A stretch of DNA of 64,000 bases from an uncultured Chryseobacterium sp. (lineage in GTDB: Bacteria > Bacteroidota > Bacteroidia > Flavobacteriales > Weeksellaceae): positions 202,917-266,916 of the forward strand of contig CAJYXJ010000014.1 in assembly GCA_913778085.1 (NCBI GenBank), written 5' to 3'. Both the position numbers and the translations under genes were made by a program. Position 1 is the first letter of the stretch; the number at the start of each line of letters is the position of its first letter. The notes below the pieces were generated by a model that was not told the origin of the DNA, did no database searches, and saw only the letters and a program-made list of their open reading frames with translations. Below are positions 49,100 through 64,000 of the stretch, piece by piece.

Positions 49100-49218
49100 A
49101 GTCTCATGGTTTTGTGATATGTATCTTTACCATAAGACGCCTTAAGAAGCCCAATTGTTACATTCGGATTGGTTAAATGTGCTTTGGGAAAAGAAAAAGA
49201 CAATATTATTGCTCTTTT

Positions 49219-49677
49219 TTAATTCAGATAAATCCCAAAATACCAGGTCCATGCTATCAGGATCAGCTGCATCGGAATTCTTTCTTTATATAAATAAGCC
49301 ATTCCCGGGCCTGAAAAATCAGCTTTGAAAATATTGATATTTTTCCGGGAGGAGTTGATGTTGGCAATAAAAACCAATATATAGAAAACAATTAATAAAA
49401 CCGCCGTCAGTTCACGGATGGAAGGGATCGTCAGTCCGATACCAGCTGCAATTTCCAGTATTCCGGTAAAATAAACCCAAAAAAATTTACCGGGAATGAA
49501 ATCAGGCATCATCATCGCCATTCCCTTCTGGAATTTGAAGTGGGCCAATCCGGTAAACATAATGAAAGCGGTCATTCCGAGGTTGCCGGAAAATAAAAAA
49601 TTCCAGTCTCCCTGAAAAATTCTGGTGCCTAATAAGCCTAAGATAAAGGTGACGAAGAGAATCGTTAACAATTTCAT
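49219..49677 (-). CDS. DoxX-like membrane protein
   Basis: A 152-residue protein with four membrane helices (MKLLTILFVTFILGLLGTRI, LGMTAFIMFTGLAHF, FFWVYFTGILEIAAGIGL, LTAVLLIVFYILVFI). The order FxxxGxxHF and GxLEIxAGIGL matches the DoxX/SURF4-like family, which includes quinol-oxidase subunits and uncharacterised redox membrane proteins. It stands alone between two intergenic repeat regions. Specific role not known. Confidence 0.78.
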   Translation of the reverse strand: MKLLTILFVTFILGLLGTRIFQGDWNFLFSGNLGMTAFIMFTGLAHFKFQKGMAMMMPDFIPGKFFWVYFTGILEIAAGIGLTIPSIRELTAVLLIVFYILVFIANINSSRKNINIFKADFSGPGMAYLYKERIPMQLILIAWTWYFGIYLN

Positions 49678-50373
49678 ATTTTATTTTTAGTCATACAATG
49701 GTATGCATGTTATCGAAATTAAGCAAAAGAAATCAGCATTCATTCAGATAAGAGGGAAGAAAGTATTTGAGTCATAATGGTTTCCTAAAACGGCTTGATG
49801 TTTCGTGCATTTGAAATTCCTGAATTAATTTTTTAAACACAGATTTGCACGGATTTACACAGATGATCGTGCTTATTATTACAGATAAGTCACATAGGAA
49901 GAATTTCCTGGATTGCGTATATTTTAGATTACATGAGATTAAAAATCAAAGATTTTTAAAATTATAGCGAATAAAAATCTCCCACAGATCGCACGGATTT
50001 GCACAGCTGTTTGTATAACAGGCTGGAAGCTGGATGAAGGAAGCTGGATATTTAATGTTTGATTAGTGTATATTTTGGTAACCACAGATCTGCGCAGATT
50101 TTCACAGATGATTGCGCTAATATTAAAAATCTTTATGTCCTATTTGTCGTCCGATTTATATGAACAAATAAAGTGATTTTTATATTTTTTTTCGTAGAAT
50201 TTTTCATTTCTTACCAGCACGAAAATCCTTTGAATAATTTTATTTCTTACCGCATTCAAAACGGCCGTCCTATTTTTCCCTTCTTTTATTTTCTTTCATC
50301 TCAACATAATATTAGCGAATAGTATTATCAAGCCTGATCATCTGTGAAAATCCTTGCCATCTGTGGGAAATTA
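49678..50373. repeat. Intergenic region with several dispersed CACAGATTTGCACGG repeats
   Basis: Copies of CACAGATTTGCACGGATTT with CACAGATGAT tails occur at about 49838-49872, 49983-50008, 50083-50116 and, in reverse, 50336-50371. 49941-49957 is one exact AAAAATCAAAGATTTTT palindrome. No gene is evident in 700 bases. Confidence 0.75.
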
Positions 50374-50820
50374 TTATAACGTATTTTCGGCAAGACTTTT
50401 TACCACTTCCAATCCTTTTGTAAAACCGGTATTCATCATTTCCTCCCAATCCTTTTCAGTCTGAACTTCTGTGTGGAGTTTGGTTTTTCCATCATAATCA
50501 ATGAAGATGTATTTTTCAAAGCATCCGCTCCATTGCTTGACTTCCATACTTTCGGTGTCTTCATTACCATTTTTATCCACCATTCCCAAGTGTTTAAAGA
50601 TGATCTGGTCCGGTTCTTCCAGTGTGTCAATGGTAGAAACCATGCCCGCTCCTTCAGCATTGACAAAATAGGTTTTACCGCCGACTTTCCAGTCGGATTT
50701 CATCAGGCTTCCCGGACTGAAAAACTGTGTCCATTCGCTGTAGGTTTTTTCATTCCACAATACGTCCCAGACTTTTTGCTTCGGCGCATCGATGACGATT
50801 TCATAAGATAACGTTTCCAT
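50374..50820 (-). CDS. SRPBCC/AHSA1-family protein
   Basis: A 148-residue protein of the START-like AHSA1 family. It begins with the usual EIVIDAPKQKVWDVLWNEKTYSEWTQ, where the WxxLW and the following GW-like pattern (DWKVGGKTYF) line a deep hydrophobic cavity, and it ends with GWEEMMNTGFTKGL-like helix. The family binds lipids or other hydrophobic ligands, or activates Hsp90; no ligand can be named. A second family gene follows 28 bases upstream on the same strand. Confidence 0.88.
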   Translation of the reverse strand: METLSYEIVIDAPKQKVWDVLWNEKTYSEWTQFFSPGSLMKSDWKVGGKTYFVNAEGAGMVSTIDTLEEPDQIIFKHLGMVDKNGNEDTESMEVKQWSGCFEKYIFIDYDGKTKLHTEVQTEKDWEEMMNTGFTKGLEVVKSLAENTL

Positions 50821-50848
50821 GTTTTTATTAATTGGGTTGATTGTTGTT

Positions 50849-51277
50849 TTATAACTGGTTTTCGGAAAGGTGTTTCACATTGGAAAGGGCATCCGGAAAT
50901 TTCTCTTCAAAAAAAGATTTAAATTCTTCGGCAGTCTGAATGTCAACTTCCAGATGGGTAATATTTTCATCTTCAGAAAGACGGTAACTTTCCATGGCGT
51001 CTCCCAAGTCCCGTGGAGTTTCTATGCCTTCATAGATTTCCCCAAGGTGCCGGAATATGATTTCCTCATTCGGGACCAGCTTTACAATTTTGCTGTACAT
51101 CCCGTTGTTTTTCGCATCCAGGAATTTAATGGTCGCGCCTTCCTGTAAATTGCCCTGGTAAAAAGAACCTTCGGTAAAGGCAGAAGTCCACTGCCTGAAA
51201 GAAAAATCGTCCCACAACACACTCCAAACCTTTATTGCTTCAGCTTTAATCTGAATATCAAAATGTAATTTTTCCAT
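50849..51277 (-). CDS. SRPBCC/AHSA1-family protein
   Basis: A 142-residue member of the AHSA1 family with the start FDIQIKAEAIKVWSVLWDDFSFRQW and the long C-terminal helix (AEEFKSFFEEKFPDALSNVKHL). It resembles the following gene at 50374 and shares its orientation; tandem duplication is likely. The ligand is unknown. Confidence 0.87.
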   Translation of the reverse strand: MEKLHFDIQIKAEAIKVWSVLWDDFSFRQWTSAFTEGSFYQGNLQEGATIKFLDAKNNGMYSKIVKLVPNEEIIFRHLGEIYEGIETPRDLGDAMESYRLSEDENITHLEVDIQTAEEFKSFFEEKFPDALSNVKHLSENQL

Positions 51278-51317
51278 AAAAAATTTATAAACTAGCTGTT
51301 AATTTCTGTGTATATCC

Positions 51318-52157
51318 TTATCCGCCTACAAAATCCCCGCCATTAATATGGATAATTTCACCGGTAATAAAACTTGAATCCTGTGAAGCCAGGAATACAT
51401 AAGCCGGAGCTACTTCCGAAGGCTGCCCTGCCCTTTTCATCGGGTTGTCTTTTCCGAAATCCGAGACATCATCAAAGGTTTCCTTTACCAGAGGCGTCCA
51501 GATCGGGCCCGGAGCCACTCCATTCACCAGGATGTTCTTTTCTGCAATATTGGTCGCTAACGAACGGATAAAGGTGGCGATCGCTCCTTTCGTTGATGAA
51601 TAATCAATCAGGTGGTCACTGCCTCTATACGCTGTAACGGAAGTGGTACAGATCACCCGCGAACCGCTGTCCATCAGCTTCAGACAGTCTCTCGTAAAAG
51701 AAATCATGGAGATAATATTGGTATCGAACGTCTTGTAAATTTGTTCATCGGAGATGTTTTCAATGTCGTCTTTAGGAAACTGGATTCCGGCATTATTGAC
51801 AAGAATATCCAGTGATTTCCATTCGCCTTTGATTTTCTCCATGCATTCTTTCCGGAAATTTTTATCTGAAAGATCGCCTTTCAGCAGCAGGCAGCTTTTT
51901 CCTTCTTGTTCTACCAATTTCCGGGTTTCTTTTGCATCGTCATCGCTTTCTTTATAAATAATGGCTACATCAGCACCTTCACGGGCATAATGCACCGCTA
52001 CGGCCTGACCGATACCGCTGTCGCCACCGGAGATCAGCGCTTTTTTACCGGCAAGTTTGTCGCTTCCTTTGTAATTTTCCCGGATGATTTCCGGATAAAG
52101 GCCCTCCTCAGGAACCTGTGATTTGGAATCTGATTGGTTCTGTGTTTTCATATTCAA
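51318..52157 (-). CDS. Short-chain dehydrogenase/reductase (YghA/GlcDH-like)
   Basis: A 279-residue SDR. The nucleotide-binding motif is SGGDSGIG near residue 45, the structural NNAG follows in LDILVNNAGIQF, and the catalytic group is Ser in ICTTSVTAYRG with YSSTK (Tyr and Lys). A 40-residue N-terminal extension (QSDSKSQVPEEGLYPEII) is common in the YghA/YhdF glucose-dehydrogenase-like group, which uses NAD(P) and often is stress-induced. The substrate cannot be named. It lies in a minus-strand series of small enzymes. Confidence 0.9.
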   Translation of the reverse strand: MNMKTQNQSDSKSQVPEEGLYPEIIRENYKGSDKLAGKKALISGGDSGIGQAVAVHYAREGADVAIIYKESDDDAKETRKLVEQEGKSCLLLKGDLSDKNFRKECMEKIKGEWKSLDILVNNAGIQFPKDDIENISDEQIYKTFDTNIISMISFTRDCLKLMDSGSRVICTTSVTAYRGSDHLIDYSSTKGAIATFIRSLATNIAEKNILVNGVAPGPIWTPLVKETFDDVSDFGKDNPMKRAGQPSEVAPAYVFLASQDSSFITGEIIHINGGDFVGG

Positions 52158-52223
52158 ATATTTTTTGGTGAATTAAACATCAAACCACAAGCCGAAGGAG
52201 GAAAAACTATGGTACCCTAAGAA

Positions 52224-53096
52224 TTAAACCTGTGAATTATAGGCCTTTTCCAAATCTTCAATCACAATCTTCTGCATGGTCATCATAACCTGTACAACTT
52301 TCTGTGCTTTTTCCGGATCGGGGTCGCTCATCAGCTGGATGAGTCTTTTCGGAACAATCTGCCAGCTGAAGCCGAACGGGTCTTTCAGCCAGCCGCACAT
52401 GCTCGCCCTCCCGCCATCAGCGGTCAAGGCATTCCAGTACCTATCCGTTTCTTCCTGCGTATCCGTCATGACAACCATTGAAATACCTTCGTTAAAATCA
52501 AACTGATGGTTGTAGGAATTATCCATACAGAACAGGCTGTAGCCATCAATTTCAAAATGCGCATGCTGAATATTCTCCGCTGGCTCCGGTATAGGATGGC
52601 CTTCGCTGCCGTCTCCGTATCTCAGAACATTCCCAATTTTAGAATTTGGGAAAGTACGGGTGTATAACCTTATTGCTTCCATCGCCTTTCCGTTGTTTTC
52701 ATGAATGAACATGAGCGTGGGAATAATTTTCTGATCACCTGATTTCTCACCAAGGAAAATCTGCCAGGTCACACCGCAGCGGTCCTGCACCCAGCCGTAT
52801 TTTTTGCTCCAAGAATAGGAATCGAGCGGCATCAGAATCATTCCGCCTTCCGATAGCTGGTCCCAGTAATGCTGTACCTCATCTTCCGTTTCACAAATTA
52901 CCATGAAGGATACCGAAGCATTCTTTTTAAAATGCGGGCCGCCATTCAGCAGCATCAGCTTCTGACCGAAGAGATCGATGTTCATGACCATTGGCGTATC
53001 GGCAGTAATCCTGCCGTTGAAAACTTTAGCATAAAATTCGGCGGACTCCTTCGCATCGCCATCATACCAAAGGCATGGGAAAATATCGTTGTTCAT
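52224..53096 (-). CDS. Two-domain VOC-family (PhnB-like) protein
   Basis: A 290-residue protein with two copies of the glyoxalase/VOC fold: the first starts DIFPCLWYDGDAKESAEFYAKVF, the second KIIPTLMFIHENNGKAMEAIRLYTRTF. Each has the PhnB-type WQIFLG/WQIVPK end. Members of this group sit among metal-dependent and resistance enzymes, but most lack the metal ligands and their function is not known. A long helix closes the protein. It lies in the same minus-strand set as the AHSA1 and SDR genes. Confidence 0.88.
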   Translation of the reverse strand: MNNDIFPCLWYDGDAKESAEFYAKVFNGRITADTPMVMNIDLFGQKLMLLNGGPHFKKNASVSFMVICETEDEVQHYWDQLSEGGMILMPLDSYSWSKKYGWVQDRCGVTWQIFLGEKSGDQKIIPTLMFIHENNGKAMEAIRLYTRTFPNSKIGNVLRYGDGSEGHPIPEPAENIQHAHFEIDGYSLFCMDNSYNHQFDFNEGISMVVMTDTQEETDRYWNALTADGGRASMCGWLKDPFGFSWQIVPKRLIQLMSDPDPEKAQKVVQVMMTMQKIVIEDLEKAYNSQV

Positions 53097-53619
53097 AATT
53101 TTTTAATTTATCCTGTTCAATGGCAGGTATATTTTATTCCGACAGATTTGCACGGAATTTCACAGATGATTACGTGGCTTCGAGCCCACTTTAATCACTG
53201 TGATACCCGCTAATTTAAATAATTGAGTGCAAAAATCTTTGATTTTTTGAAACTTTTGTGCACTTTTTAGCATAAAGCATTTCCACTTTATTTATACAGC
53301 AAGCATATCTTTTGTGACTTTGTGGTAAAATTCCACGGTTAAATATAAACCACAGATTTGCACGGATTTTCACTGATGATTGCGTGCCATTGAGTAGTCT
53401 TAACCACCGGGATTACGGTCAAGTAAGTACGCTGAGATTTAAACCACAGATTTACTCAGATTAACACAGATGATTGCGCCTGTTTAAAAATCTTTGATTT
53501 TTAATCTGATGTGCTCTTTCTGCTTTCAAAGCTTGTCTTTTCTTTTTTTCTTATGTGTTTAACAGTTTCTACCAGACCGCTTTTACTTCTCTATAGACGC
53601 TTCAAAATTATATAGGCCT
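53097..53619. repeat. Intergenic region rich in dispersed repeats
   Basis: CACAGATTTGCACGG-type copies lie at 53138-53175, 53345-53383 and 53441-53477. Exact AAAAATCTTTGATTTTT palindromes occur at 53231-53247 and 53486-53502. No gene is evident. Confidence 0.75.
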
Positions 53620-53871
53620 TTACCTGAATGATAAGTGATTTTCTTTCAAATGCGCTTTTAGTTTTTCCATGGTGTTTTTCCTGAAGCCATACAGTTGCGT
53701 AAGCTCTTCTTCCGAATACTCCGAAAGCTTTTCGAGACAGTCTATTTTCTCTTTCTCCAAAGCTCTTCTGGCAGGCCCCGGAATAATTCCCCGAAGAAAA
53801 TTCCCTTGGGCGGCATAGCTTACCCTACTCATGGAGGAAAGGCACTTTGTCATTATCACCAGGTTGATCAT
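53620..53871 (-). CDS. Small helix-hairpin-helix (RNA polymerase alpha CTD-like) protein
   Basis: An 83-residue protein. The last 55 residues fit a helix-hairpin-helix module like the alpha subunit C-terminal domain or UvrC-type HhH: PGPARRALEKEKIDCLEKL, then YSEEELTQLYGFRKNTMEKL. Such modules bind DNA non-specifically. The start is uncertain; ATGs at residues 7 and 14 are plausible too. It follows the AHSA1 gene by 14 bases and could be co-transcribed with it. Confidence 0.6.
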   Translation of the reverse strand: MINLVIMTKCLSSMSRVSYAAQGNFLRGIIPGPARRALEKEKIDCLEKLSEYSEEELTQLYGFRKNTMEKLKAHLKENHLSFR

Positions 53872-53885
53872 GCTACCGAAAGAAT

Positions 53886-54299
53886 TTAATGATTTTCTAC
53901 ATACTTATGAAAATTATTCAGGATCGCATACCAGCCTTCCCGCTGCATTTCCGGTAGATTCTGTTTTTCCGGATCGAAAGTAATTTCTATCTTCGTCGTG
54001 GTCGCATCAACTTCATGAAATAAGACTTCAACCTTCCTGCCGTCTTCCAGGTGATACCGGATCTTTTCGCAGTCAACGATGTCGTCATACGTCCCTTCAA
54101 AATCGAAACCGAAGCTCCCGTCCTTGGCTTCCATCCTGGTTTTTAATTTTCCTCCAGTACGGAGGTCGTTTTCCGCAGACGGACAGTGCCAGCTTTCATG
54201 GGCGAAATTCCACTGGATTATGTGTTCCGGATTATTGTAATATTCCCATACTTTCTGTATGGGCGACAGTATAGTTATATCTATTGTAATTGGTTCCAT
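53886..54299 (-). CDS. SRPBCC/AHSA1-family protein
   Basis: A 137-residue AHSA1-type protein: the start ITIDITILSPIQKVWEYYNNPEHIIQW is the family N-terminus, DFEGTYDDI and WYAILNNFHKYVE complete it. It is the third SRPBCC gene of this region and shares the minus strand. A 14-base gap precedes the small HhH gene. Ligand unknown. Confidence 0.88.
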   Translation of the reverse strand: MEPITIDITILSPIQKVWEYYNNPEHIIQWNFAHESWHCPSAENDLRTGGKLKTRMEAKDGSFGFDFEGTYDDIVDCEKIRYHLEDGRKVEVLFHEVDATTTKIEITFDPEKQNLPEMQREGWYAILNNFHKYVENH

Positions 54300-54323
54300 A
54301 TTATTATATTTTTGCGGTGGATT

Positions 54324-54346
54324 AAAAGAGCAGCTTCAGAAGCTGC
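54324..54346 (-). terminator. Terminator of the VOC gene at 54375
   Basis: GCAGCTTC (54330-54337) pairs with GAAGCTGC (54339-54346) and is followed on the minus strand by TTTT. It ends the VOC gene before the AHSA1 gene begins. Confidence 0.6.
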
Positions 54347-54374
54347 CCTTGATGAAATAAAGTTTAAAGATCGC

Positions 54375-54806
54375 CTATTTTGTATATTCTTCATTGTAGT
54401 TTACCATCCAATGGGTACCATATTTGTCCTGAAAGCTTCCGAAATAGTCGCCCCAAAACTGGTCTTCAATGGGCATTTCGATATTACCGCCTTCCGAAAG
54501 GCCTCTAAAAAGCCGGTCGGCCTCTTCCCTTGACTCCGGGAAAATTGAAACATAATTGTTATTTCCAACCGTGAGCGTCTGTCCGAAGCTTGGGACAATA
54601 TCGGAAGCCATCAGAAGATCTTTTCCAACGGGAAGAGCGATATGCATCACCCTGTTTTTCTCTTCATCAGAGAGATGTTCCGTACCGGGAGCGTTTCCCA
54701 TTCTGTAGATATCGCCCAGAAATTCACCGCCGAAAACCGATTTGTAAAAGTTGAAGGCTTCTTCTGCCTGTCCGTCGAAATTTAAGTAAGAATTTAATTT
54801 AGCCAT
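54375..54806 (-). CDS. VOC-family (PhnB-like) protein
   Basis: A 143-residue protein, read from the ATG at 54806 (MAKLNSYLNFDGQAEEAF) because the upstream codons do not look coding. It has the PhnB-like sequence FYKSVFGGEF, a MHIALPVGKD segment and the terminal WGDYFGSFQDKYGTHWMVN. Single VOC-domain protein; probably a dimer of two. Function unknown. Upstream lies a copy of the dispersed CACAGATTCGCACAG repeat at 54893. Confidence 0.87.
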   Translation of the reverse strand: MAKLNSYLNFDGQAEEAFNFYKSVFGGEFLGDIYRMGNAPGTEHLSDEEKNRVMHIALPVGKDLLMASDIVPSFGQTLTVGNNNYVSIFPESREEADRLFRGLSEGGNIEMPIEDQFWGDYFGSFQDKYGTHWMVNYNEEYTK

Positions 54807-55080
54807 AAGTTTTATTTTTATTGAAATGGAGGGTCGTAACATTTGATCCGGATTCCAGAGTTCCCCGGACCATTTTGTTTGTAAAGATCTTAAACCACAG
54901 ATTCGCACAGATTTTCACAGATCTTTTATAAATATCTATTAACTGTAAAAAACCGGTCTGTAAAAAGTCTTAATGCCTATTCCGTCCGTCAGAATTTACA
55001 AATAAGTGATTCATTTACAATTATGTAAATGTATTTCGATCAGAAAACAGAGCAGGCTGTCATTTGATTTTAGAAAGGTA

Positions 55081-55485
55081 TCATTCAGGCATTTGAGAAG
55101 GATCGGCAAACATAATATTCCAGCCATGACCATTGATGTCCCAAAAGGAGTTCTGATACATCCAGCCATGGTCCTGAGGCTCTTCATGTTGTGTGGCTCC
55201 GTTCTCTACTGCCGCATGGACTGCCTGATCCACTTCTTCCCGGCTGTTCAGTCCGATGGCAATTAAGACCTGGGTGGTATCGCCTTTGGGAACCGGTCTC
55301 TCGGAAAAAGTCTGAAAATAATCTTCGGTAAGGAACATAACATACATATTGTCGCCCATTATGATGCAGACCGCATTCTCATCTGAGATCTGATCATTAA
55401 CAGGAAATCCGATATTCGTCCAGAACGCTTTGGTTTGTTCTATATTTTTAACGGGAAGGTTCACATAGATCTGATTGGCTTTCAT
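55081..55485 (-). CDS. VOC-family (glyoxalase-like) protein
   Basis: A 134-residue VOC protein from the ATG at 55485, chosen as the codons before it lack coding character. It begins IYVNLPVKNIEQTKAFWTNIGF and ends WDINGHGWNIMF, typical of the one-domain glyoxalase/bleomycin-resistance family. Metal ligands are not all obvious. It is the first of the small-enzyme series downstream of the Crp-like gene. Confidence 0.87.
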   Translation of the reverse strand: MKANQIYVNLPVKNIEQTKAFWTNIGFPVNDQISDENAVCIIMGDNMYVMFLTEDYFQTFSERPVPKGDTTQVLIAIGLNSREEVDQAVHAAVENGATQHEEPQDHGWMYQNSFWDINGHGWNIMFADPSQMPE

Positions 55486-55562
55486 ATAATAATTTTTAAG
55501 GTTAAAACTTTTATCCAAAATTATCTTATTGTTCTGAAAGCCGGCTTGCCATAAGACAAGAT

Positions 55563-56153
55563 TTACCCTTTTCGGGGATGCGAAACCAGCTCTTTTCTAA
55601 TCCGGCTTAAAGAAGTATCCGTAACGCCGAGATACGATGCAATCTGTTTTAAAGGGGCGAGCCGGACCACCTGGGGTTTCTGCTCCAGAAGATTCAGATA
55701 ACGCTTTGTTGCGGAAAGGGTAAACATTTCCACGGAGCGCTGCTTATAGATAAAAAGCTGTTGCGACATCCATGCGCGGCCCCATTCCCGGAGGTTCGGA
55801 ATTCTATGGAAAAGTTCCTGGAACTTTTCAAAGCTGAGCTTCCGGCACTCGCAGTCGGTAATGCAGACAATATTTTCCTGGGTAGGAATTCGCTGGAAAA
55901 GTGAAGAGACCTCGATAACAATTTCGTTTTCCGCAAAAAAATGAGTAGTAACCTCATTACCGTTGAAGTCATTGACGAATGATCGGGCCAGCCCTTTTTC
56001 AAGAATATAATATTCGTTGGCGGTTTTTCCTTCATTCAGAATAAAGTCTCCTTTGCGGAAATTCACTATTTCATGGGCCTGAAATATTTCATCAAGCTCC
56101 TCCCGGAGAAAGAAAGGAAAGTCGTAACAGATTTCCAGCGCTGTATTGCTCAT
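55563..56153 (-). CDS. Crp/Fnr-family transcriptional regulator
   Basis: A 196-residue protein with a cyclic-nucleotide-binding fold (residues 20-130, EILNEGKTANEYYILEKGLARSF and FFAENEIVIEVSSLFQ) and a C-terminal winged HTH (LKQIASYLGVTDTSLSRIRKEL). There are no Fnr-type cysteine clusters, so it senses no oxygen by iron-sulphur. It lies just upstream of the VOC gene on the same strand and could regulate the set of small stress-type genes at 50-55 kb. Confidence 0.9.
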   Translation of the reverse strand: MSNTALEICYDFPFFLREELDEIFQAHEIVNFRKGDFILNEGKTANEYYILEKGLARSFVNDFNGNEVTTHFFAENEIVIEVSSLFQRIPTQENIVCITDCECRKLSFEKFQELFHRIPNLREWGRAWMSQQLFIYKQRSVEMFTLSATKRYLNLLEQKPQVVRLAPLKQIASYLGVTDTSLSRIRKELVSHPRKG

Positions 56154-56478
56154 TAGTCAGTACTTTAGACTTTAAAAATAAAATTTTATTTGATATGTTG
56201 AATAAAATTTTTGCCATGCCAAAATGGATAAGGGTTTCCTATGCTATGGTGAAGTCGTTTATCCGGTAAATTTTCATACGGAAATATCAGCGCGTCGGCT
56301 GATACTTTAATGAAATGGAATATATGGTTCAAAGAACTTTAATGAATAATCCCGAAGACGTAAATTTATTTAATTAAATCATTTTTACATTTAAAAATAA
56401 TTTATCCTGATGATCCGGAAAAAAGTAATGTTAAATACATCTGTATTCCTTATCAAACAATATCGGGGTAAAGTCATA
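56154..56478. other. Intergenic gap, nothing recognised
   Basis: The 325 bases upstream of the Crp-like gene and downstream of the DUF763 gene hold no ORF or member of the local repeat families that I can see. Confidence 0.45.
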
Positions 56479-57690
56479 TTAAAACAGGGAAAGCTGGATA
56501 GGTTTCGGAGGCGACGGCTTCTGCGCATCCCCGAAAACGGTTTTCCCACCGAAACGCCATGAATTCTGACGTTCTTCTTCAATAACTTCCTGGATATCAA
56601 AGGCGGGGGTAAAGTCTTTTTCCGTAGCTTCAATGATCTGTTGAAGCTTATTAGAGGTTTTTAGTTTGTCTGGATTTCCCAGTTTCGACTTTTCAATTCC
56701 GGATCTGATGATCTGCAGGCTTTCGTCATAGACTTTGGTAGGAACCGGAAACGGATGCCCGTCCTTTCCACCATGAGCAAAAGAGAAGCGTGCCGGATCT
56801 TTAAATCTCGAAGGCGCACCGTGAATGACCTCACTGACTAACGCCAGCGACTGCATCGTACGGGGACCCACCCCTTCCAGCATCAGCAGGTCTTCAAAAT
56901 GCTGAGGCTGCTGCTCGCGGGTCACATATAACAGCGCTCCCAAACGCTTCAGATCGACATCCGAAGCCTGGACCTCGTGGTGGTTGGGAAGAATCAACCT
57001 GGAGAAATCACTCATGATCTCTGCAGAGTCGGTATGGGAAATTTCCAGAATCCCTTTGCGGTTATCAGAAGCTTCAGCATCGGTTAAATTCAGGATTCTT
57101 CCTCTCGAGATCCCGTTGATTCCGGTATGAGGCTCTTCCACGAAAGAAGTAATATTTCCGGAATGCCAGTGATAGCGCCTTGCGGTGCCGTCGGATTCAT
57201 GCATACCCTGCTGCACTACGCTCCAGTTTCCGTTATCCGATAGGATAAAGTTGTGCAGGTACAATTGATAGCCATCCTGAATCGCCGTATTGTCCACTTT
57301 TGCGGATAATTTGCTGGCTCTTACAAGATCTTTTCCATCAAGTCCGGTTTTATCGGCAATCTGAAGGAGTTCGGAAGGTGTTTCCCTCGAAAATTTACCT
57401 TTTCCGCCACAAATGTACAATCCCAGAGACTGAGAATTCGGATTAATAGAGCGTTTCAAAGCACCCATTACGGAAGTGGTAATTCCGGAAGAATGCCAGT
57501 CCATTCCCATTACCGCACCAAAGCTCTGGAACCAGAACGGGTCTGCCAGCCGGCGGAGCACTTCGTCTTTCCCGTAATCCATTAAAATAACCTCCACAAT
57601 GGAAAGTCCAAGCACCGACATGCGTTCATACAGCCACGGCGGTACTTTGCCATAGTGAAGCGGTAAATCTGCAGTTCCGGAACGTTTCAT
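56479..57690 (-). CDS. DUF763-family protein
   Basis: A 403-residue protein matching DUF763, a family found in archaea and bacteria. The start MKRSGTADLPLHYGKVPPWL is the family hallmark, followed by SFGAVMGMDWHSSG, GKGKFSRETP and a C-terminal region with ILMLEGVGPRTMQSLALVSE, a helix-hairpin-helix-like segment (GVGP). The HhH suggests DNA contact; the enzymatic role is not known. The gene is single. Confidence 0.88.
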   Translation of the reverse strand: MKRSGTADLPLHYGKVPPWLYERMSVLGLSIVEVILMDYGKDEVLRRLADPFWFQSFGAVMGMDWHSSGITTSVMGALKRSINPNSQSLGLYICGGKGKFSRETPSELLQIADKTGLDGKDLVRASKLSAKVDNTAIQDGYQLYLHNFILSDNGNWSVVQQGMHESDGTARRYHWHSGNITSFVEEPHTGINGISRGRILNLTDAEASDNRKGILEISHTDSAEIMSDFSRLILPNHHEVQASDVDLKRLGALLYVTREQQPQHFEDLLMLEGVGPRTMQSLALVSEVIHGAPSRFKDPARFSFAHGGKDGHPFPVPTKVYDESLQIIRSGIEKSKLGNPDKLKTSNKLQQIIEATEKDFTPAFDIQEVIEEERQNSWRFGGKTVFGDAQKPSPPKPIQLSLF

Positions 57691-58187
57691 ACGGTAAAGG
57701 TAAGGGTAAACTTTGTATTTTTTATTGTTTTGAATCAGTATTTTCAGGTTTAAAATTGTCTTTAATTTGAGAAGCGGTTATGCGGTGGCTTAGCGAGGAA
57801 GCTAAACTTGAGAAACCCAGGCTGAAATTTAAACACATCAAGGAAAAGGAAGAAATTTGATTTGAAAACAGGAAGAATACATCAGATTAAAAATCAAAGA
57901 TTTTTAAATATACACAATTATCCATGAAGATCTGCGATTTCAATCTAATGGAAAATTAACCACAAAAGTCAAAAAAGAGATTGATGCTGTTAAAAAGTTG
58001 AATGCTTTACAGTGAATAAGCGCACACAAGCTTTTAAAAAGCTTCGATTTTTAATCTTATGTGTTCTAAAATATTTTCACGCTATTAAATTCTCTCCTGT
58101 GACTCATCTGTTTATTAGATATTATTATCTGTGAAAATCCGTGTAAATCTGTGGTTCAAATCTTACCGTTTTATATAATTAAAGCAT
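57691..58187. repeat. Intergenic region with dispersed repeats
   Basis: 57889-57905 is one exact AAAAATCAAAGATTTTT palindrome in the longer context CATCAGATTAAAAATC; 58118-58155 is a reversed CACAGATTTGCACGG-type copy (TCTGTGAAAATCCGTGTAAA and on). No gene is evident. Confidence 0.7.
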
Positions 58188-58219
58188 AAAAAAGCCCTGC
58201 AAAATGATTCGCAGGGCTT
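58188..58219 (-). terminator. Terminator of tpx
   Basis: AAGCCCTGC (58192-58200) pairs with GCAGGGCTT (58211-58219); six T follow on the minus strand. It lies 20 bases past the tpx stop. Confidence 0.85.
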
Positions 58220-58237
58220 CTAACTTTTATTACTTAA

Positions 58238-58738
58238 TTATTTCACAGCAGATAAAGCCGCTTCATAATCGGGTTCGTCTGCAATTTCGGACACCTGCTC
58301 AGTGTACACCACTTTGTTATTTTCGTCGGCTACAATTACAGCACGGCTCAGAAGTCCTTGAAATACAGAATCTGCGATCGTGACTTCATAATCGTCCCCA
58401 AAGCTGCCTCTGAAATCTGAAAGGGTTTCTACGTTGTCCAGTCCTTCTGCCGCACAGAATCTCCCCAATGCAAAAGGAAGGTCTTTGGAAACATTGATTA
58501 CCACGGTATTGTCCAAAGCAGATGCTTTTTCATTAAACGTTCTTGCCGAAGCCGCACACACGGGAGTATCAACGCTCGGAAAAATATTGAAAATCTTCTT
58601 CTTGCCTTCGAAATTTTCCAGGGTTTTAACGTTCAATCCGGAATCTACCAATGCGAAATCCCTGATGGTAGTACCTACTGCAGGAAGTGTTCCTATTGTG
58701 TGTACTTCATTTCCTTTTAAAGTAATTGTAGTTGCCAT
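58238..58738 (-). CDS. tpx: Thiol peroxidase
   Basis: A 166-residue atypical 2-Cys peroxiredoxin that reduces hydroperoxides with thioredoxin. The peroxidatic Cys61 lies in SVDTPVCAAS and the resolving Cys95 in GRFCAAEG, at the same positions as in E. coli Tpx. Size and N-terminal TLKGNEVHTIG fit. It lies alone with its own promoter and terminator. Confidence 0.96.
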   Translation of the reverse strand: MATTITLKGNEVHTIGTLPAVGTTIRDFALVDSGLNVKTLENFEGKKKIFNIFPSVDTPVCAASARTFNEKASALDNTVVINVSKDLPFALGRFCAAEGLDNVETLSDFRGSFGDDYEVTIADSVFQGLLSRAVIVADENNKVVYTEQVSEIADEPDYEAALSAVK

Positions 58739-58763
58739 AAATTTATTTTTTAAAATGTTTTTT

Positions 58764-58794
58764 CAAATTTACTAAAATACCCCATGCCGTTAAA
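58764..58794 (-). promoter_or_regulatory. Promoter of tpx
   Basis: On the minus strand TTTA (58791-58794), 19 bases, TAAATTTG (58764-58771), an exact TAnnTTTG. The leader is about 20-25 bases. Confidence 0.55.
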
Positions 58795-59001
58795 CAGCAT
58801 CATGGTTAAATAATTCTTAAAGTAAGGCGGTTAATCACCATATCAAATGGCCTAAAGTATAAAATATCTTCCATAAATCCACATTAGGGATTTGTCTGTT
58901 TAATGCAAGACCTCTGTTTTCAGACAATTTTGCCCAGTCTATAAATTCTAATCCTTGTATTTTACATTTTTGTAAATTAACTCTAAAAATCGAAAATTAA
59001 T

Positions 59002-59032
59002 TTTATACAATGAAGGTATTTCTATATCTTTG
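59002..59032 (+). promoter_or_regulatory. Promoter of the FkbH-ACP-MBOAT-SGNH operon
   Basis: TTTA (59002-59005), 19 bases, TATCTTTG (59025-59032), an exact -7 element. Transcription should begin near 59038-59040, some 120 bases before the FkbH-like start, and right at an ATG at 59040. Confidence 0.6.
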
Positions 59033-59039
59033 CCCTTTA

Positions 59040-59120
59040 ATGAACAATACCAAAACACATCTGATGAAATCATCATTCTGTGCTCCGCCGCAATGTATGA
59101 TTTTAAGCAGAAAATATTGA
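59040..59120 (+). CDS. Possible leaderless 26-residue peptide ahead of the operon
   Basis: A 26-codon ORF begins at the predicted transcription start. The peptide holds the compact motif SFCAPPQCMIL with two cysteines four residues apart. It ends 39 bases before the FkbH-like gene. It may be a leader peptide acting on the operon, or chance. I do not recognise it. Confidence 0.3.
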   Translation: MNNTKTHLMKSSFCAPPQCMILSRKY

Positions 59121-59159
59121 TAGTATGATTGATATATTCTCCTTTAAATCAGGATTTAC

Positions 59160-60884
59160 ATGTACAAAACATTTTCGGAATTAAAAAAAGTATTGCGAAA
59201 AGAGACCCATTCGCATAAAATGATAAAGGTAGCTTTGTTGGGAGATACGGCTACCCAGTTTTTAAATGTAGCCTTAAAAGGAACGGCTAAAATGGAAGGT
59301 TTCGGACTTGAGATTTTTGAAGCGGATTTCGGGCAGATTTCCCGTCAGATCATGGATCCGTCCTCGGAATATTATGAGTTTGACGCCGATTATACCATTA
59401 TTTTTGAATCGACGCATAAACTGCTGAATCAGTATTATAAATCTTCCGATTTTTCCAAAAACTTCGCAGACAATAAGCTCCGTTATGTAGAGGAACTCTA
59501 TTATGCGATACAAAGCAGGACGAAAAGCCGTGTGATCTATTGTAATTTTCCCTTTATCGACAATAATGTATTCGGAAATTTCTCCAACAAAGTGGAAGCC
59601 TCTTTCAGCTTTCAGCTGAATAAGATCAACTACCTGCTTTCCCAGGAAATTGCCATAAAGAAAGATAATTTCTTCATTGCCGACCTGCTTTCCATTCAGA
59701 ATAAATGGGGACGTGATTTTATATTTACCCCGAGTATTTATGTGAATACGGAAATGGTAATTTCTATCGATGCCCTTCCGATCGTGGCACACCATATTTT
59801 CAGTATCATTGCCTCACTGGAAGGGAAATTTAAGAAATGTCTGATCCTGGATCTTGACAATACTACTTGGGGCGGGATCATTGGTGATGATGGCCTGGAA
59901 AAAATCCAGATCGGAAATTTAGGAATCGGAAAAGCGTTTACGGAGTTTCAGTATTGGGTAAAATCATTACAGAAAAGAGGAATTATTCTGGCCGTATGCA
60001 GTAAAAATGACGAAGACAAGGCGAAGGAGCCTTTTGAAAAGCATCCGGATATGGTGCTTAAACTTGATGATATTGCCGTATTTGTTGCCAACTGGGAAAA
60101 TAAAGCCGACAACATCAGAAAAATCCAGCATATTTTAAATATAGGTTTCGATTCTATGGTTTTTTTAGATGACAATCCTTTTGAAAGAAACCTTGTACGT
60201 GAAAACCTTCCGGAAGTTTGCGTTCCGGAACTTCCCCCAGATCCTGCAGACTACCTGGAATATCTTTACAGCCTGAATCTGTTTGAGACCGCCAGCTTTT
60301 CCGAAAACGACAGCGAAAGGACAAAGCAATACCAGAGAGAAGCCCAAAGAGCGGTTGATCTTGAAAGCTTTACGAATGTGGAAGATTTCCTGAAAAGCAT
60401 GAACATGGTTTCCGATGTTCAGCCGTTCAACAGTTTTTCCAAGCCGAGGGTCTCACAGCTTACCCAAAGATCCAATCAGTTCAACCTGCGTACCGTGCGG
60501 TATACCGAACAGGAGATTGAGAATCTGATACAATCAGAAAAGCATCATACCCTCTCGTTTACGCTGGAAGACAAATACGGCGATAACGGGCTGATCTGTG
60601 TAATCGTCCTTGAAGAACAGGATGAGGACACGGTTTTCATCGATACCTGGCTGATGAGCTGCAGGGTACTAAAGAGAGGTATGGAAGATTTCACCCTCAA
60701 TACCATTGTAGAAGAGGCTAAAAAACATGGTTATAAATACATTGCTGGTGAATATCTTGAAACCGCTAAAAACCAGATGGTGAAAGACCATTACCAAAAT
60801 TTAAATTTCACATCCGAAAATAACCGGTGGATCCTCAATATAAGTGATTACCAACCCAAAACAGTATATATAAAAAATAAATAA
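59160..60884 (+). CDS. FkbH-like HAD-IIIC enzyme
   Basis: A 574-residue protein of the FkbH type. Residues 1-220 form an N-terminal SGNH-like domain; the HAD core has the nucleophile motif ILDLDNTTWGG near 230 and DDNPFERNLVRE near 335; the C-terminal 150 residues resemble a GNAT-like fold (RGMEDFTLNTIVEEAKKHGY). Known FkbH proteins take the glyceryl group from 1,3-bisphosphoglycerate, remove a phosphate and load it on an acyl carrier protein. The very next gene is such a carrier (2 bases after), so the same reaction is likely here. In polyketide clusters this makes an extender unit; here no polyketide synthase is present and the later genes suggest envelope modification. Confidence 0.85.
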   Translation: MYKTFSELKKVLRKETHSHKMIKVALLGDTATQFLNVALKGTAKMEGFGLEIFEADFGQISRQIMDPSSEYYEFDADYTIIFESTHKLLNQYYKSSDFSKNFADNKLRYVEELYYAIQSRTKSRVIYCNFPFIDNNVFGNFSNKVEASFSFQLNKINYLLSQEIAIKKDNFFIADLLSIQNKWGRDFIFTPSIYVNTEMVISIDALPIVAHHIFSIIASLEGKFKKCLILDLDNTTWGGIIGDDGLEKIQIGNLGIGKAFTEFQYWVKSLQKRGIILAVCSKNDEDKAKEPFEKHPDMVLKLDDIAVFVANWENKADNIRKIQHILNIGFDSMVFLDDNPFERNLVRENLPEVCVPELPPDPADYLEYLYSLNLFETASFSENDSERTKQYQREAQRAVDLESFTNVEDFLKSMNMVSDVQPFNSFSKPRVSQLTQRSNQFNLRTVRYTEQEIENLIQSEKHHTLSFTLEDKYGDNGLICVIVLEEQDEDTVFIDTWLMSCRVLKRGMEDFTLNTIVEEAKKHGYKYIAGEYLETAKNQMVKDHYQNLNFTSENNRWILNISDYQPKTVYIKNK

Positions 60885-60886
60885 TT

Positions 60887-61123
60887 ATGGACAAAAATGA
60901 AGTTTTAGAAAAGCTTATTCCGATTTTCCGTGAACAGCTTGATAATGAAGATCTCGAACTGAATGCTGAAACCACTGCTGAAGACATTGAAGAATGGGAT
61001 TCCCTTTCGCATATTCAGCTGATTGTGGCTATTGAGAAAGCTTTCGGGATCCGTTTTACGTCTGCAGAAATCCAGAGCTGGAATAATGTCGGGGAAATGA
61101 TTGATTCTATCATCAGTAAATAG
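60887..61123 (+). CDS. Acyl carrier protein
   Basis: A 78-residue carrier protein. The phosphopantetheine would attach at Ser39 in EEWDSLSHIQLI, where the usual DSL motif is kept. Four-helix pattern and acidity fit. It lies 2 bases after the FkbH-like gene and 5 before the MBOAT gene, so it is the dedicated carrier of the operon, not the fatty-acid ACP. Confidence 0.92.
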   Translation: MDKNEVLEKLIPIFREQLDNEDLELNAETTAEDIEEWDSLSHIQLIVAIEKAFGIRFTSAEIQSWNNVGEMIDSIISK

Positions 61124-61128
61124 ACCAC

Positions 61129-62562
61129 ATGCTCCTCAATTCGTATTATTTCATCTTCTTTTTTACTGTACTGTTTTTTGGGTATTACCTTCTGGGGAAA
61201 ACATCAAAAATTCAGAATCTGCTCCTGCTTATAGGCAGCTATATTTTTTACAGCAGCTGGAGCTGGAATTTTCTTTCGCTGCTAATCCTATCTACTCTTG
61301 CCACTTTCTTCATTGGAAATAAGATCCGGAAGGCTGAAGGCCATGCGAAGGTATATTGGATGAGAGGAGGTGTTTTTCTGGTCCTGATCCAGCTTTTATA
61401 TTTTAAATACTTCAATTTTTTCATTGAAAATTTTAACGATCTGCTGAAACTGATAGGGACGAGAGACCAGCTGGGACTGCTGAAAATCATTTTCCCTATC
61501 GGAATAAGCTTTTACTCTTTCCGGATGATCGGTTATCTGTTGGATATCAGGAACAATAAGCTGAAAGAAATCCCTTCATTACTCGATTATTCGGTTTTTG
61601 TCGCTTTTTTTCCATGCATTATTGCGGGACCTATTGATAAAGCGGGACCATTTTTAAATAACTTAAAAAACAAAAGGGAATTTTCTCCTTTACAGTTTAC
61701 CGACGGATTGAGGCAAATATTATGGGGATTATTCAAAAAGCTGGTGGTTGCCGACAACATTGCGACGATTACCACTCCTATTTTTGAGTCCTATCATACA
61801 TTAAACGGAAGCGCACTGTTCATCGGCGCGGTTTTATATTTCATTCAGCTGTACTGCGATTTCTCGGGATATACCGATATGGCGATCGGAATTTCCAAAT
61901 TATTGGGCATTAAAATCCAGCCGAATTTCAATTACCCTCTCTTTGCACAGAATGTAGCGGATTACTGGCGAAGATGGCACATCTCCCTTACGTCATGGCT
62001 CACAGAATATGTTTTTACCCCACTGTCGATCCGGTTCCGGGATTATGACAAATACGGACTGATCATGGCGATCATCATCAACTTCCTGGTGGTGGGCTTC
62101 TGGCACGGTGCGGAATGGCATTATATTTTTCACGGACTGGTAAGCGGCATCATGTTTATTCCGATCATCTGGAAAGGAAAAATGAATAAGAAGGTAAAAA
62201 ACCAAAGCAATATTATCCCTACAAAAGAAGAGCTGAAAAATATCCCCGTAACGTTTATAATGTTCGCTCTGCTGATGGTGCTTTTCTTCTCAAGCGATAT
62301 GAAAATGGCCTTGGGATATTACAGGGAAATTTTTTCTCTGTCTTTCTTTGAGCTGCCGAATTTTAAATTTCAAAAACTTATCGCCCTGCTGATCCTGTTT
62401 ACTTTAGGAGTTGAATGGATCAACCGTGATAAGGAATATGCACTTAAAGACCTGTTTGCCCAAAACAACATGATCATGAGATGGGGCTTTTATTATCTGC
62501 TGATCTTCCTCATCTGCCTTTTTTACATTGCCCCGAAAGGATTTATTTATGCACAGTTTTAA
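61129..62562 (+). CDS. MBOAT-family O-acyltransferase (AlgI/DltB-like)
   Basis: A 477-residue membrane-bound O-acyltransferase with about ten membrane helices. The family's catalytic histidine lies in GFWHGAEWHYIFHGL near residue 325; the conserved YWRRWHISLTSWL loop precedes it. DltB and AlgI relatives take an acyl group from a carrier on the cytoplasmic side and pass it to the outside. With an ACP gene 5 bases upstream the donor is probably the FkbH-loaded carrier. The recipient would be a cell-surface glycan; it is not shown. It lies 3 bases before the SGNH gene. Confidence 0.92.
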   Translation: MLLNSYYFIFFFTVLFFGYYLLGKTSKIQNLLLLIGSYIFYSSWSWNFLSLLILSTLATFFIGNKIRKAEGHAKVYWMRGGVFLVLIQLLYFKYFNFFIENFNDLLKLIGTRDQLGLLKIIFPIGISFYSFRMIGYLLDIRNNKLKEIPSLLDYSVFVAFFPCIIAGPIDKAGPFLNNLKNKREFSPLQFTDGLRQILWGLFKKLVVADNIATITTPIFESYHTLNGSALFIGAVLYFIQLYCDFSGYTDMAIGISKLLGIKIQPNFNYPLFAQNVADYWRRWHISLTSWLTEYVFTPLSIRFRDYDKYGLIMAIIINFLVVGFWHGAEWHYIFHGLVSGIMFIPIIWKGKMNKKVKNQSNIIPTKEELKNIPVTFIMFALLMVLFFSSDMKMALGYYREIFSLSFFELPNFKFQKLIALLILFTLGVEWINRDKEYALKDLFAQNNMIMRWGFYYLLIFLICLFYIAPKGFIYAQF

Positions 62563-62565
62563 GTT

Positions 62566-63507
62566 ATGAAAAAATCACTTTACCGATTACTGCTTTTTTC
62601 CATACTCCCCCTGCTTTTCATCGGCTATGCGGTTTATGTTACCGGGAAGACTACGGATGATTTTTATAAAAGATTCTCCTCTCCCCGGCAGAACTCCTTT
62701 ATTTTGGGAAGCTCAAGGGCTGCTTCGATGAATCCTGAGATTATCGACAACATTATCCGGCAGAAATATCCTGAGGCAAAATTGTACAATTATGCTTTTA
62801 CCTGGGCCCACTCTCCCTACGGACCCAAATATCTTGAATCGATAAAGAAAAAAATAAAACCGGATACGAAACACGGCGTTTTTATTGTAACCGTGGAGCC
62901 GACAGCTTTAATGATTTCCAAGACCGGTCCTGACGATCCGTACTATTATACCGAAAACGACAAATCCGTCGCCAGAACCTCAAATGTTACAGCGAATCCC
63001 AATTTTGAATATCTTATTGAAAGCTTTGATTTTTCCATCACCAAAGAACTGAATAAAAAGATTATGCCTGAAAAAAACCAGATGGTTGAAGTTTCCGTAT
63101 TGGATAACGGGCAGTTACAGGGAAAAGTACTGAAAAGATTTTCACCGGAGAAAAGAAAATCTGTAAACAGGGAGAAAATGATGGAATTTAAAAACAGGAT
63201 CGACAATCTAAGAATGTCGAATGTCCGCATGCAATATTTAATCCGGACTATTGATTTCCTGAAAAAGCATGGAAAAGTAGTTCTCGTAAGAATGCCGATC
63301 AGCCGAACAGCCTATACTATTGAGAACGCTGCCGTTCCCGATTTTGATAATACCATTAAAGGCATCTCAACGGCTGAACAAGTGGAATATATTAATTATA
63401 ACCACATTCCCAATCATTACAAATGGACTGATGAAGTTCATCTCGAACCCGAATCCATGGACCAGTTTTCCGGACAAATAGGAAAATATATTCTCCTGTT
63501 AAAATAA
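62566..63507 (+). CDS. Membrane-anchored SGNH/DltD-like protein
   Basis: A 313-residue protein with one N-terminal membrane helix (RLLLFSILPLLFIGYAVYV) and the rest outside. SGNH-hydrolase-like marks are FILGSSRAASM (a GSSR in place of GDS, near 47) and the DxxH motif DEVHLEP near residue 288-291. In this position DltD, or AlgX/AlgJ-like, proteins complete the transfer of the acyl group to the glycan. The pairing with an MBOAT 3 bases upstream supports that. The central part is not recognised. Exact acceptor unknown. Confidence 0.75.
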   Translation: MKKSLYRLLLFSILPLLFIGYAVYVTGKTTDDFYKRFSSPRQNSFILGSSRAASMNPEIIDNIIRQKYPEAKLYNYAFTWAHSPYGPKYLESIKKKIKPDTKHGVFIVTVEPTALMISKTGPDDPYYYTENDKSVARTSNVTANPNFEYLIESFDFSITKELNKKIMPEKNQMVEVSVLDNGQLQGKVLKRFSPEKRKSVNREKMMEFKNRIDNLRMSNVRMQYLIRTIDFLKKHGKVVLVRMPISRTAYTIENAAVPDFDNTIKGISTAEQVEYINYNHIPNHYKWTDEVHLEPESMDQFSGQIGKYILLLK

Positions 63508-63798
63508 CATATGGGATTTTAAAAACTGTTTAATTTATCCAACTTTTTTTCTAAGAATTTCTCTTGTTATTGTTTATCCGTATAAAATTTATTCAGTCCC
63601 AGTTTCAATATTGAAGAATTTTTTTACTAAGCTAAAAAAATTAAATACCTAGGCTGTACATTAAATCATTAAAAAGACACGCATTAATTTATGGATGCTG
63701 CAAATCCTTTCAATCAATAATAACAAAATTTAAAACGGAGAAATAATTTATTAACCGGAAATTTTCTATCTTCGCATTCTTAAAAAAATTGTTTAACC
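63508..63798. other. Intergenic gap with probable promoter
   Basis: No ORF is evident. TATCTTCG at 63767-63774 is one mismatch from TAnnTTTG and would start transcription near 63780, about 19 bases before the next start; its -33 box is poor. Confidence 0.4.
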
Positions 63799-64000
63799 AT
63801 GAAAAAAAGAATGACTTTACTGTTATTCGGGGTTCCGCTCTTCGGTTTTGCCCAGTCGGCGATCGGAAGCATTAATTCCGGGGCAGTTTCCACAGACGGC
63901 TTTTCGCATTCCGTAGGAGAAATCTACGTAATCCCTACGGATCCCGATCAGGCAAGTTCCGGTACAATGGGTGTGCTTTATCAATCCGTCCTTCAGGTAT
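63799..64000 (+). CDS. Partial secreted protein at the right edge
   Basis: A gene whose first 67 codons lie in the window. The start has a typical signal peptide (MKKRMTLLLFGVPLFGFA, cut before QSA). The mature start, GSINSGAVSTDGFSHSVGEI, resembles short T9SS-sorted surface proteins of Flavobacteriia (SVGE/SVGQ pattern), but the sorting domain would be past the edge. The function cannot be told. Confidence 0.75.
   Translation, partial: MKKRMTLLLFGVPLFGFAQSAIGSINSGAVSTDGFSHSVGEIYVIPTDPDQASSGTMGVLYQSVLQV

Follow-up and report, generated by a model that had tools for sequence, protein, structure and literature searches.

Our analyses of a 64,000-nucleotide stretch of DNA from an uncultured Chryseobacterium sp. 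(the whole stretch is referred to below as the window) have identified a tight operon of four genes, located at 59160-63507 on the + strand, which encode in order an FkbH enzyme, a stand-alone acyl carrier protein (ACP), a membrane-bound O-acyltransferase (MBOAT) and a DltD-like SGNH protein. Judged from sequence comparisons, this operon probably encodes a system in which a carrier feeds an MBOAT-SGNH pair and a surface glycan is esterified with a glyceryl group supplied by FkbH, where the glyceryl identity of the acyl group, the acceptor and the function are what we infer. The operon MBOAT is without the LGG motif of PatA-like MBOATs and, because a neighbouring ACP goes with the absence of this motif in the MBOATs that we have compared, its acyl donor is likely to be ACP rather than coenzyme A (CoA). 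The features on which this reading depends are as follows:

59160-60884, + strand: FkbH-type glyceryl transferase/phosphatase (the putative loader), 574 amino acids (aa); FkbH_N at the N-terminus, a HAD-IIIC phosphatase and a C-terminal part with the SCR motif (Cys501); related to PDB 3slr (BF1531)
60887-61123, + strand: stand-alone ACP, 78 aa; phosphopantetheine site Ser39, codon 61001-61003
61129-62562, + strand: MBOAT, 477 aa; His284 and His326
62008-62058, + strand: donor-side helix of the MBOAT, residues 294-310, YVFTPLSIRFRDYDKYG; at the position of DltB's DltC-docking helix HC, without the LGG motif of PatA-like MBOATs
62542-62559, + strand: C-terminal acyl-shuttle hexapeptide of the MBOAT, FIYAQF, residues 472-477, with Tyr474
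62566-63507, + strand: DltD-like SGNH protein, 313 aa; hydrophobic stretch at the N-terminus; proposed triad Ser50-Asp289-His292

A first-pass annotation of this DNA had described the four genes as tightly packed and had given them the roles of loader, carrier, membrane acyltransferase and SGNH protein of a Dlt-like pathway. The gene content, strand and order are confirmed, with gaps of 2, 5 and 3 bases (FkbH/ACP, ACP/MBOAT and MBOAT/SGNH, respectively), and the roles are supported. The FkbH protein matches FkbH_N (2.6e-68), scores 308.3 bits against TIGR01686, above the cut-off of 146.65, and has a close relative of solved structure in BF1531 of Bacteroides (PDB 3slr; E 1e-154). The features of the FkbH family (viz. 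the DxD HAD motif, the conserved Lys, DD and the SCR cysteine) are present in it, in agreement with its earlier assignment, and among 31 FkbH sequences (that of the window plus 30 of the phylum draw) no variation is seen at D231, D233, K315 and D337, while 30 retain Cys501. As a guess from this conservation, the glyceryl group may be carried by Cys501. The carrier matches PP-binding (3.1e-8), with Ser39 within DSL. For the protein in the SGNH position no Pfam family scores above its cut-off (DUF1574, 20.3 bits vs. 29.1), and with a profile of 47 homologues the best solved match is DltD (PDB 6o93; E 2.8e-4); Gly48, Ser50 and His292 are among the five invariant columns of this profile.

The operon MBOAT matches the Pfam family MBOAT (2.2e-20), and its His284 and His326 align with the RWH and WHG histidines of DltB. 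Its score against the DltB model TIGR04091 (175.7 bits) is under the cut-off of 375, hence it is DltB-like and not DltB, and plain DltB membership was rejected. The TIGR04091 scores do not separate ACP-linked MBOATs (five, 160.5-190.6 bits) from unlinked or second-pair MBOATs (five, 144.3-162.7 bits). Excerpts of one account locate the motif FXYXXF in Dlt systems on a separate protein, DltX, and in PatA at the C-terminus of the MBOAT itself, where its Tyr becomes acetylated (PMC12148441). A separate DltX microprotein was not found inside the operon, whose gaps leave no space for a DltX gene, and FXYXXF sits at the C-terminus of the MBOAT. In a set of 81 loci (80 close FkbH loci and the window), 84 of the 96 untruncated MBOAT open reading frames (ORFs) end in FXYXXF and 94 in [FY]XYXXF, the remaining 2 being frame-broken. 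The operon combines the architecture of PatA with the carrier of Dlt.

The identity of the donor is indicated by the helix that corresponds to HC of DltB, a horizontal helix on which DltC rests according to excerpts of a structural source (Met302, Val305, Ile306, Met309, Lys312 and Arg317; PMC11035591). At this position the operon MBOAT has YVFTPLSIRFRDYDKYG; the corresponding stretch is YLYIPLGGSKGG in the genome's second MBOAT, which lies next to an SGNH gene and has no ACP. This second MBOAT-SGNH pair (contig C27, L160:8227-10621) is likewise without FkbH, has an LGG helix and the tail FIYFQF, and is probably a CoA-fed O-acetyltransferase. Among the 81 loci, P[LMI]GG is found in 0 of 64 MBOATs located directly behind an FkbH/ACP module vs. 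23 of 31 others, a count that leaves out two incomplete MBOAT ORFs (L028 and L064); each of the 8 other MBOATs that are without P[LMI]GG is the sole MBOAT of a locus in which FkbH and ACP are reordered or further away. The second sample consisted of all MBOAT rows in a 99-genome draw from the phylum except the window genome's own; 40 genomes (including that of the window) had such a row, and the draw contained 60 distinct MBOATs, 59 of them scorable (L244 was unscorable, and the region L249 yielded no MBOAT). The helix motif, initially P[LMI]GG, was widened to LGG or [PS]MGG after a partial look at this sample and before the full count. ACP is in view for 0 of the 46 LGG MBOATs vs. 8 of the 13 non-LGG MBOATs (Fisher 5.8e-7, a p-value that is only indicative because the sequences are related). 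As controls, the MBOAT of an N. gonorrhoeae record with the PatA tail FIYANF carries LGG, and the DltB of Lactobacillus crispatus is without it. The proposal in the first-pass annotation that a carrier protein is the donor is supported by this helix signature.

Three ACP-MBOAT loci (L217, L218 and L235) were opened for their loader. In each of them ACP and an MBOAT with the tail FIYFQF and no LGG stand behind a protein of 573-586 aa, which in L217 and L235, the two searched for family, is an AMP-binding enzyme with fatty acyl-AMP and long-chain acyl-CoA ligases as its best NCBIfam matches, below the cut-offs. Because these loaders resemble fatty acyl ligases, the acyl group at L217 and L235 is probably fatty, and from their genes the three loci look like systems for carrier-fed fatty acylation of a surface polymer. 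They share with the operon an ACP beside a non-LGG MBOAT and differ from it in the loader. In L217, a GDSL-like gene is located just upstream. Carrier-fed MBOATs with a built-in shuttle seem to form a wider class, of which FkbH is one of the loaders.

In the 81 loci ACP is found in all and MBOAT in 73; among the 8 loci without it, the contigs of L062, L063 and L096 are short or come to an end. The unbroken run of genes behind FkbH contains MaoC and SDR in 28 loci, a methyltransferase and VOC in 15, VOC alone in 9, a methyltransferase alone in 3, a methyltransferase with MaoC and SDR in 1, MaoC alone in 1 and no tailoring gene in 24, where these 24 include some loci whose run is broken soon after FkbH (e.g., L050 and L073, with such genes further on) and L077, whose tailoring genes are located before FkbH. 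The Pfam names of these families, each from one representative, are MaoC_dehydratas, adh_short, Glyoxalase_4 and Methyltransf_23. The MaoC motif D.N..H is kept in 31 of 31 sequences and the VOC residues H, Q, H and E in 24 of 24, the latter presumably being the metal ligands of methylmalonyl-CoA epimerase. MaoC would dehydrate glyceryl-ACP to pyruvyl-ACP, whose reduction would give lactyl-ACP, and VOC would invert C2; a glyceryl to lactyl step occurs in bryostatin loading modules. The same FkbH-ACP-MaoC-SDR arrangement is found on a Subdoligranulum plasmid (L255, a Bacillota record), with no MBOAT recognized in the stretch, hence the module proposed to make lactyl-ACP is not confined to one phylum. 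The four-gene minimal set belongs to a modular family, in which the extra enzymes predict other acyl groups.

The MBOAT type appears from these comparisons to track the tailoring type largely, and FkbH does not. In 38 Chryseobacterium-group loci, FkbH is on average about 80% identical between untailored and tailored types, and between the untailored and the methyltransferase-VOC or MaoC-SDR types the averages are 49-51% for MBOAT and 27-34% for SGNH. The fewest changes of tailoring type required by quick trees, made without a mixture model, are 11 for FkbH, 5 for ACP, 5 for MBOAT and 7 for SGNH in these loci (about 20 with shuffled labels), and 19, 13 and 13 for FkbH, ACP and MBOAT when all 59 loci whose run includes ACP and MBOAT are taken, with 13 for SGNH (56 loci). 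The best single locus for transferase sets matched to the tailoring type is L045, where one FkbH, the single FkbH match of that genome (G332), is accompanied by two ACPs with a separate MBOAT-SGNH pair behind each, one set being untailored and the other having MaoC and SDR.

Orthologous FkbH (at least 77% identity) is present in 13 of 36 sampled genomes of the same genus, and all 13 loci carry ACP, MBOAT and SGNH; in two uncultured Chryseobacterium assemblies FkbH is 91% identical. The identical four-gene set and order are found in two other families (L143 and L145), with FkbH identities of 37% and 50%. Across the phylum, FkbH scores above cut-off in 29 of 392 genomes (that of the window included); 30 loci from other genomes were fetched (28 over the cut-off and 2 just under it, with 4 weak FkbH rows unfetched), and MBOAT is recognized nearby in 4 of these, viz. 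L134 and L135 (same-genus loci that repeat the close-relative loci L029 and L045), L143 and L145. The FkbH-linked four-gene set is uncommon across the phylum; the survey of its conservation that the first-pass annotation suggested finds it in the 13 same-genus loci and in L143 and L145, and not in the loci without a recognized MBOAT that are considered below. Outside the phylum, ACP-FkbH-MBOAT-hypothetical-VOC occurs on a Rhodobacteraceae plasmid, and pSymB of S. meliloti 1021 (L252, 622000-650000) has VOC, an MBOAT (FLYQGF, no LGG), an unknown protein of 409 aa, ACP and FkbH, the last split over two overlapping frames in strain 1021 and in one piece in the S. meliloti records listed; the proteins in the SGNH position on both replicons gave no Pfam match.

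A link to glycan loci is supported in relatives, in line with the envelope polysaccharide or lipid suggested in the first-pass annotation. At least two genes from two glycosyltransferase clusters (named Glycos_transf_1 and Glycos_transf_2 by Pfam, from one representative each) are present in the fetched stretch of 35 of 39 Chryseobacterium-group loci and 19 of 42 others, the four Chryseobacterium-group loci without them being the window, L020, L021 and L051. In the window genome the glycan locus is on another contig, where its methyltransferase gene is adjoined directly by a glycosyltransferase gene, without the operon; in relatives the operon occupies this very site (compare L168, L169 and L171-L176), and L165, L166, L167 and L170 likewise show no such glycan genes around the operon. 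Since the glycan-locus methyltransferase is found in 32 of the 36 same-genus genomes (28 at 72% identity or more) vs. 13 for the operon, the glycan locus extends across the genus with the operon as an optional module, and in the window genome the two are apart. Within the window, the neighbour upstream of the operon (58238-58738) is on the opposite strand, and position 59002, the start given for the feature, lies 5' of the first gene. The sequence TATCTTTG at 59025-59032, about 130 bases 5' of the FkbH start, resembles the consensus -7 promoter element of Bacteroidota.

Several observations weigh against the reading of the operon as a glyceryl-ACP-fed system for a surface glycan. The MBOAT profile finds no MBOAT in 8 of the 81 close FkbH-ACP loci and none was found in 26 of the 30 phylum-wide FkbH loci (both within the fetched stretches), and L164, which holds the sole FkbH among 24 sampled out-of-genus genomes (57% identical), has ACP and no recognized MBOAT. 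In the phylum draw, no FkbH is in view near any of the 8 ACP-linked MBOATs, so this test speaks for ACP linkage generally and not for FkbH. The signature is limited by 5 of the 13 non-LGG MBOATs of the draw that have no ACP in view (L219, L231, L240, L241 and L247, without a recognized ACP neighbour), and for 25 of the 46 LGG cases the locus is short, the frame ending 2-1186 bases from the locus end, so that a more distant ACP could be missed for them. Tailoring genes are carried by L053 and Kaistella L055-L057, in which the MBOAT is nearer to the untailored type, and MBOAT correlates with FkbH no less than with ACP in a partial Mantel test (0.38 vs. 0.34), hence this test cannot part co-evolution from linkage, and physical linkage by itself could produce part of the pattern. 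Because the operon is outside the glycan locus in the window genome, the acceptor rests on relatives, and the specificity of the operon FkbH for 1,3-bisphosphoglycerate is assumed by analogy with its family.

The loci without a recognized MBOAT would suit an alternative in which MBOAT and SGNH form a usual O-acetyltransferase fed by acetyl-CoA, and the glyceryl-ACP made by FkbH-ACP goes to a different transferase, a soluble one (e.g., an amino-sugar N-acyltransferase), and PatA, a tested MBOAT with a built-in shuttle, uses acetyl-CoA according to excerpts of PMC12148441. We regard this alternative as unlikely, since the donor helix is unlike that of PatA-like MBOATs at the very place where the carrier docks on DltB, the LGG type is that of the second MBOAT-SGNH pair of the window genome, which has no ACP, and the MBOAT type largely tracks the tailoring type, with L045 having two ACP-MBOAT-SGNH sets and one FkbH. 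Somewhat less likely still is that the machinery is the same and this FkbH subfamily loads another phosphorylated acid, making the decoration non-glyceryl even in the minimal operon. The identity to other FkbH proteins of the genus or phylum does drop to 34-37% (L018, L019 and L143), and no tested member of the subfamily was found in the literature among the matches listed; against this, its conserved residues are common to the FkbH family at large, and the chemistry of MaoC, SDR and VOC suits a 2,3-dihydroxypropanoyl thioester, an argument from chemistry only. The idea that the operon belongs, as a fragment, to a tetronate- or polyketide-type pathway of secondary metabolism, with the MBOAT modifying a small lipid or natural product, is the least probable of the three, for although tetronate and methoxymalonyl clusters are classical settings of FkbH-ACP pairs (PMC7489565, PMC4979870, in excerpts) and such pairs occur with a KAS III gene in L085 and L094 and in a KAS III-VOC-FkbH-ACP group in L162 and L163, the KAS III profile has no match in the window at 49001-64000 (where the contig ends with the window and 493 bases are visible 3' of the operon), 35 of 39 Chryseobacterium-group loci lie among glycosyltransferase genes, the four-gene order recurs in L143 and L145, and polymer acylation typically involves a separate SGNH partner.

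For the window operon, this KAS III result led us to reject a polyketide setting, and the possibility raised in the first-pass annotation that such clusters lie always inside polyketide loci is at variance with an operon that is not tied to them. The FkbH of L162 and L163 (two same-genus genomes) is distant (34-35% identical) and is accompanied by ACP, KAS III, VOC and SDR with no MBOAT recognized; this group is perhaps a tetronate-like or glycan acyl pathway. FkbH domains also occur in the phylum inside very long open frames (2987 aa in L147 and 2157 aa in L150).

With the preferred reading, a glyceryl-ACP-fed acylation of a surface glycan, the operon can be placed among known systems. With the Dlt pathway (DltA-DltB-DltC-DltX-DltD, teichoic acid D-alanylation) it shares an MBOAT and a DltD-like SGNH protein, a carrier beside the MBOAT that is the likely donor, and a donor helix without LGG; it differs in its loader (FkbH in place of the adenylating ligase DltA), in the low DltB score of its MBOAT and in its Gram-negative host. 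With the DltX shuttle forming part of the MBOAT itself, as it does in PatA, the operon differs from dlt in more than its loader, which modifies the Dlt-like pathway of the first-pass annotation. PatA-PatB (peptidoglycan O-acetylation) and AlgI/WssH-type systems (AlgI and WssH are described as MBOATs in excerpts of PMC9558356) likewise have a C-terminal hexapeptide on the MBOAT and a separate SGNH protein, the tail being FIYANF in N. gonorrhoeae PatA (PMC12148441, in excerpts) and FIYAQF here. Unlike these, the operon includes ACP and a loader and its MBOAT is without LGG, and thus does not show the LGG helix with no ACP in view that marks all 46 LGG members of the draw (the PatA control also being LGG). 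The FkbH-ACP units of tetronate, methoxymalonyl and nonribosomal peptide/polyketide synthase pathways also have an FkbH-like protein with an ACP or carrier domain, which makes a glyceryl thioester according to excerpts of PMC7489565, PMC4979870 and PMC8949500; unlike them, the operon is without a ketosynthase or FabH-like partner, and its delivery is proposed to be to a membrane acyltransferase. No named system with this gene set was recognized: the literature search gave nothing recognizable as surface acylation by FkbH, ACP and MBOAT-SGNH among the matches listed, as the first-pass annotation had supposed, and searches that touched on glyceric acid in Chryseobacterium O-antigens gave nothing usable.

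The proposed mechanism is as follows. FkbH, by analogy with its family, would take D-1,3-bisphosphoglycerate, remove phosphate and load D-glyceryl on ACP. Glyceryl-ACP would dock at the cytoplasmic donor helix of the MBOAT, whose signature is observed, and the MBOAT would transfer the acyl group to Tyr474 of its own FIYAQF, a motif that is present and a step that is modelled on PatA and DltX. Ser50 of the SGNH protein would then receive the acyl group and pass it to a hydroxyl of an envelope polysaccharide. In relatives, the MaoC and SDR, VOC or methyltransferase genes that are observed would convert glyceryl-ACP to lactyl-, L-glyceryl- or methylated acyl-ACP.

It may be, although we advance this only tentatively, that these systems constitute a third mechanistic class of envelope acylation, in which an MBOAT with a built-in Tyr shuttle is fed by a carrier and not by CoA and is recognizable by its donor helix, and in which loaders and tailoring enzymes are exchangeable; a surface glycan that related strains have in common would receive, depending on the strain, glyceryl, lactyl, L-glyceryl or methylated acids derived from glycolysis, FkbH remaining constant and the transferase pair being swapped to match. 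MBOAT-SGNH pathways other than Dlt use acyl-CoA and no carrier protein in the excerpts of PMC12148441, and the ACP-linked MBOATs with their distinct donor helix look like a class of exceptions to this carrier-less rule. If true, the operon would represent a non-alanine, non-acetyl counterpart of Dlt in Gram-negatives and a direct path from a glycolytic intermediate to a surface ester, and the tailoring genes would predict the acyl group strain by strain.

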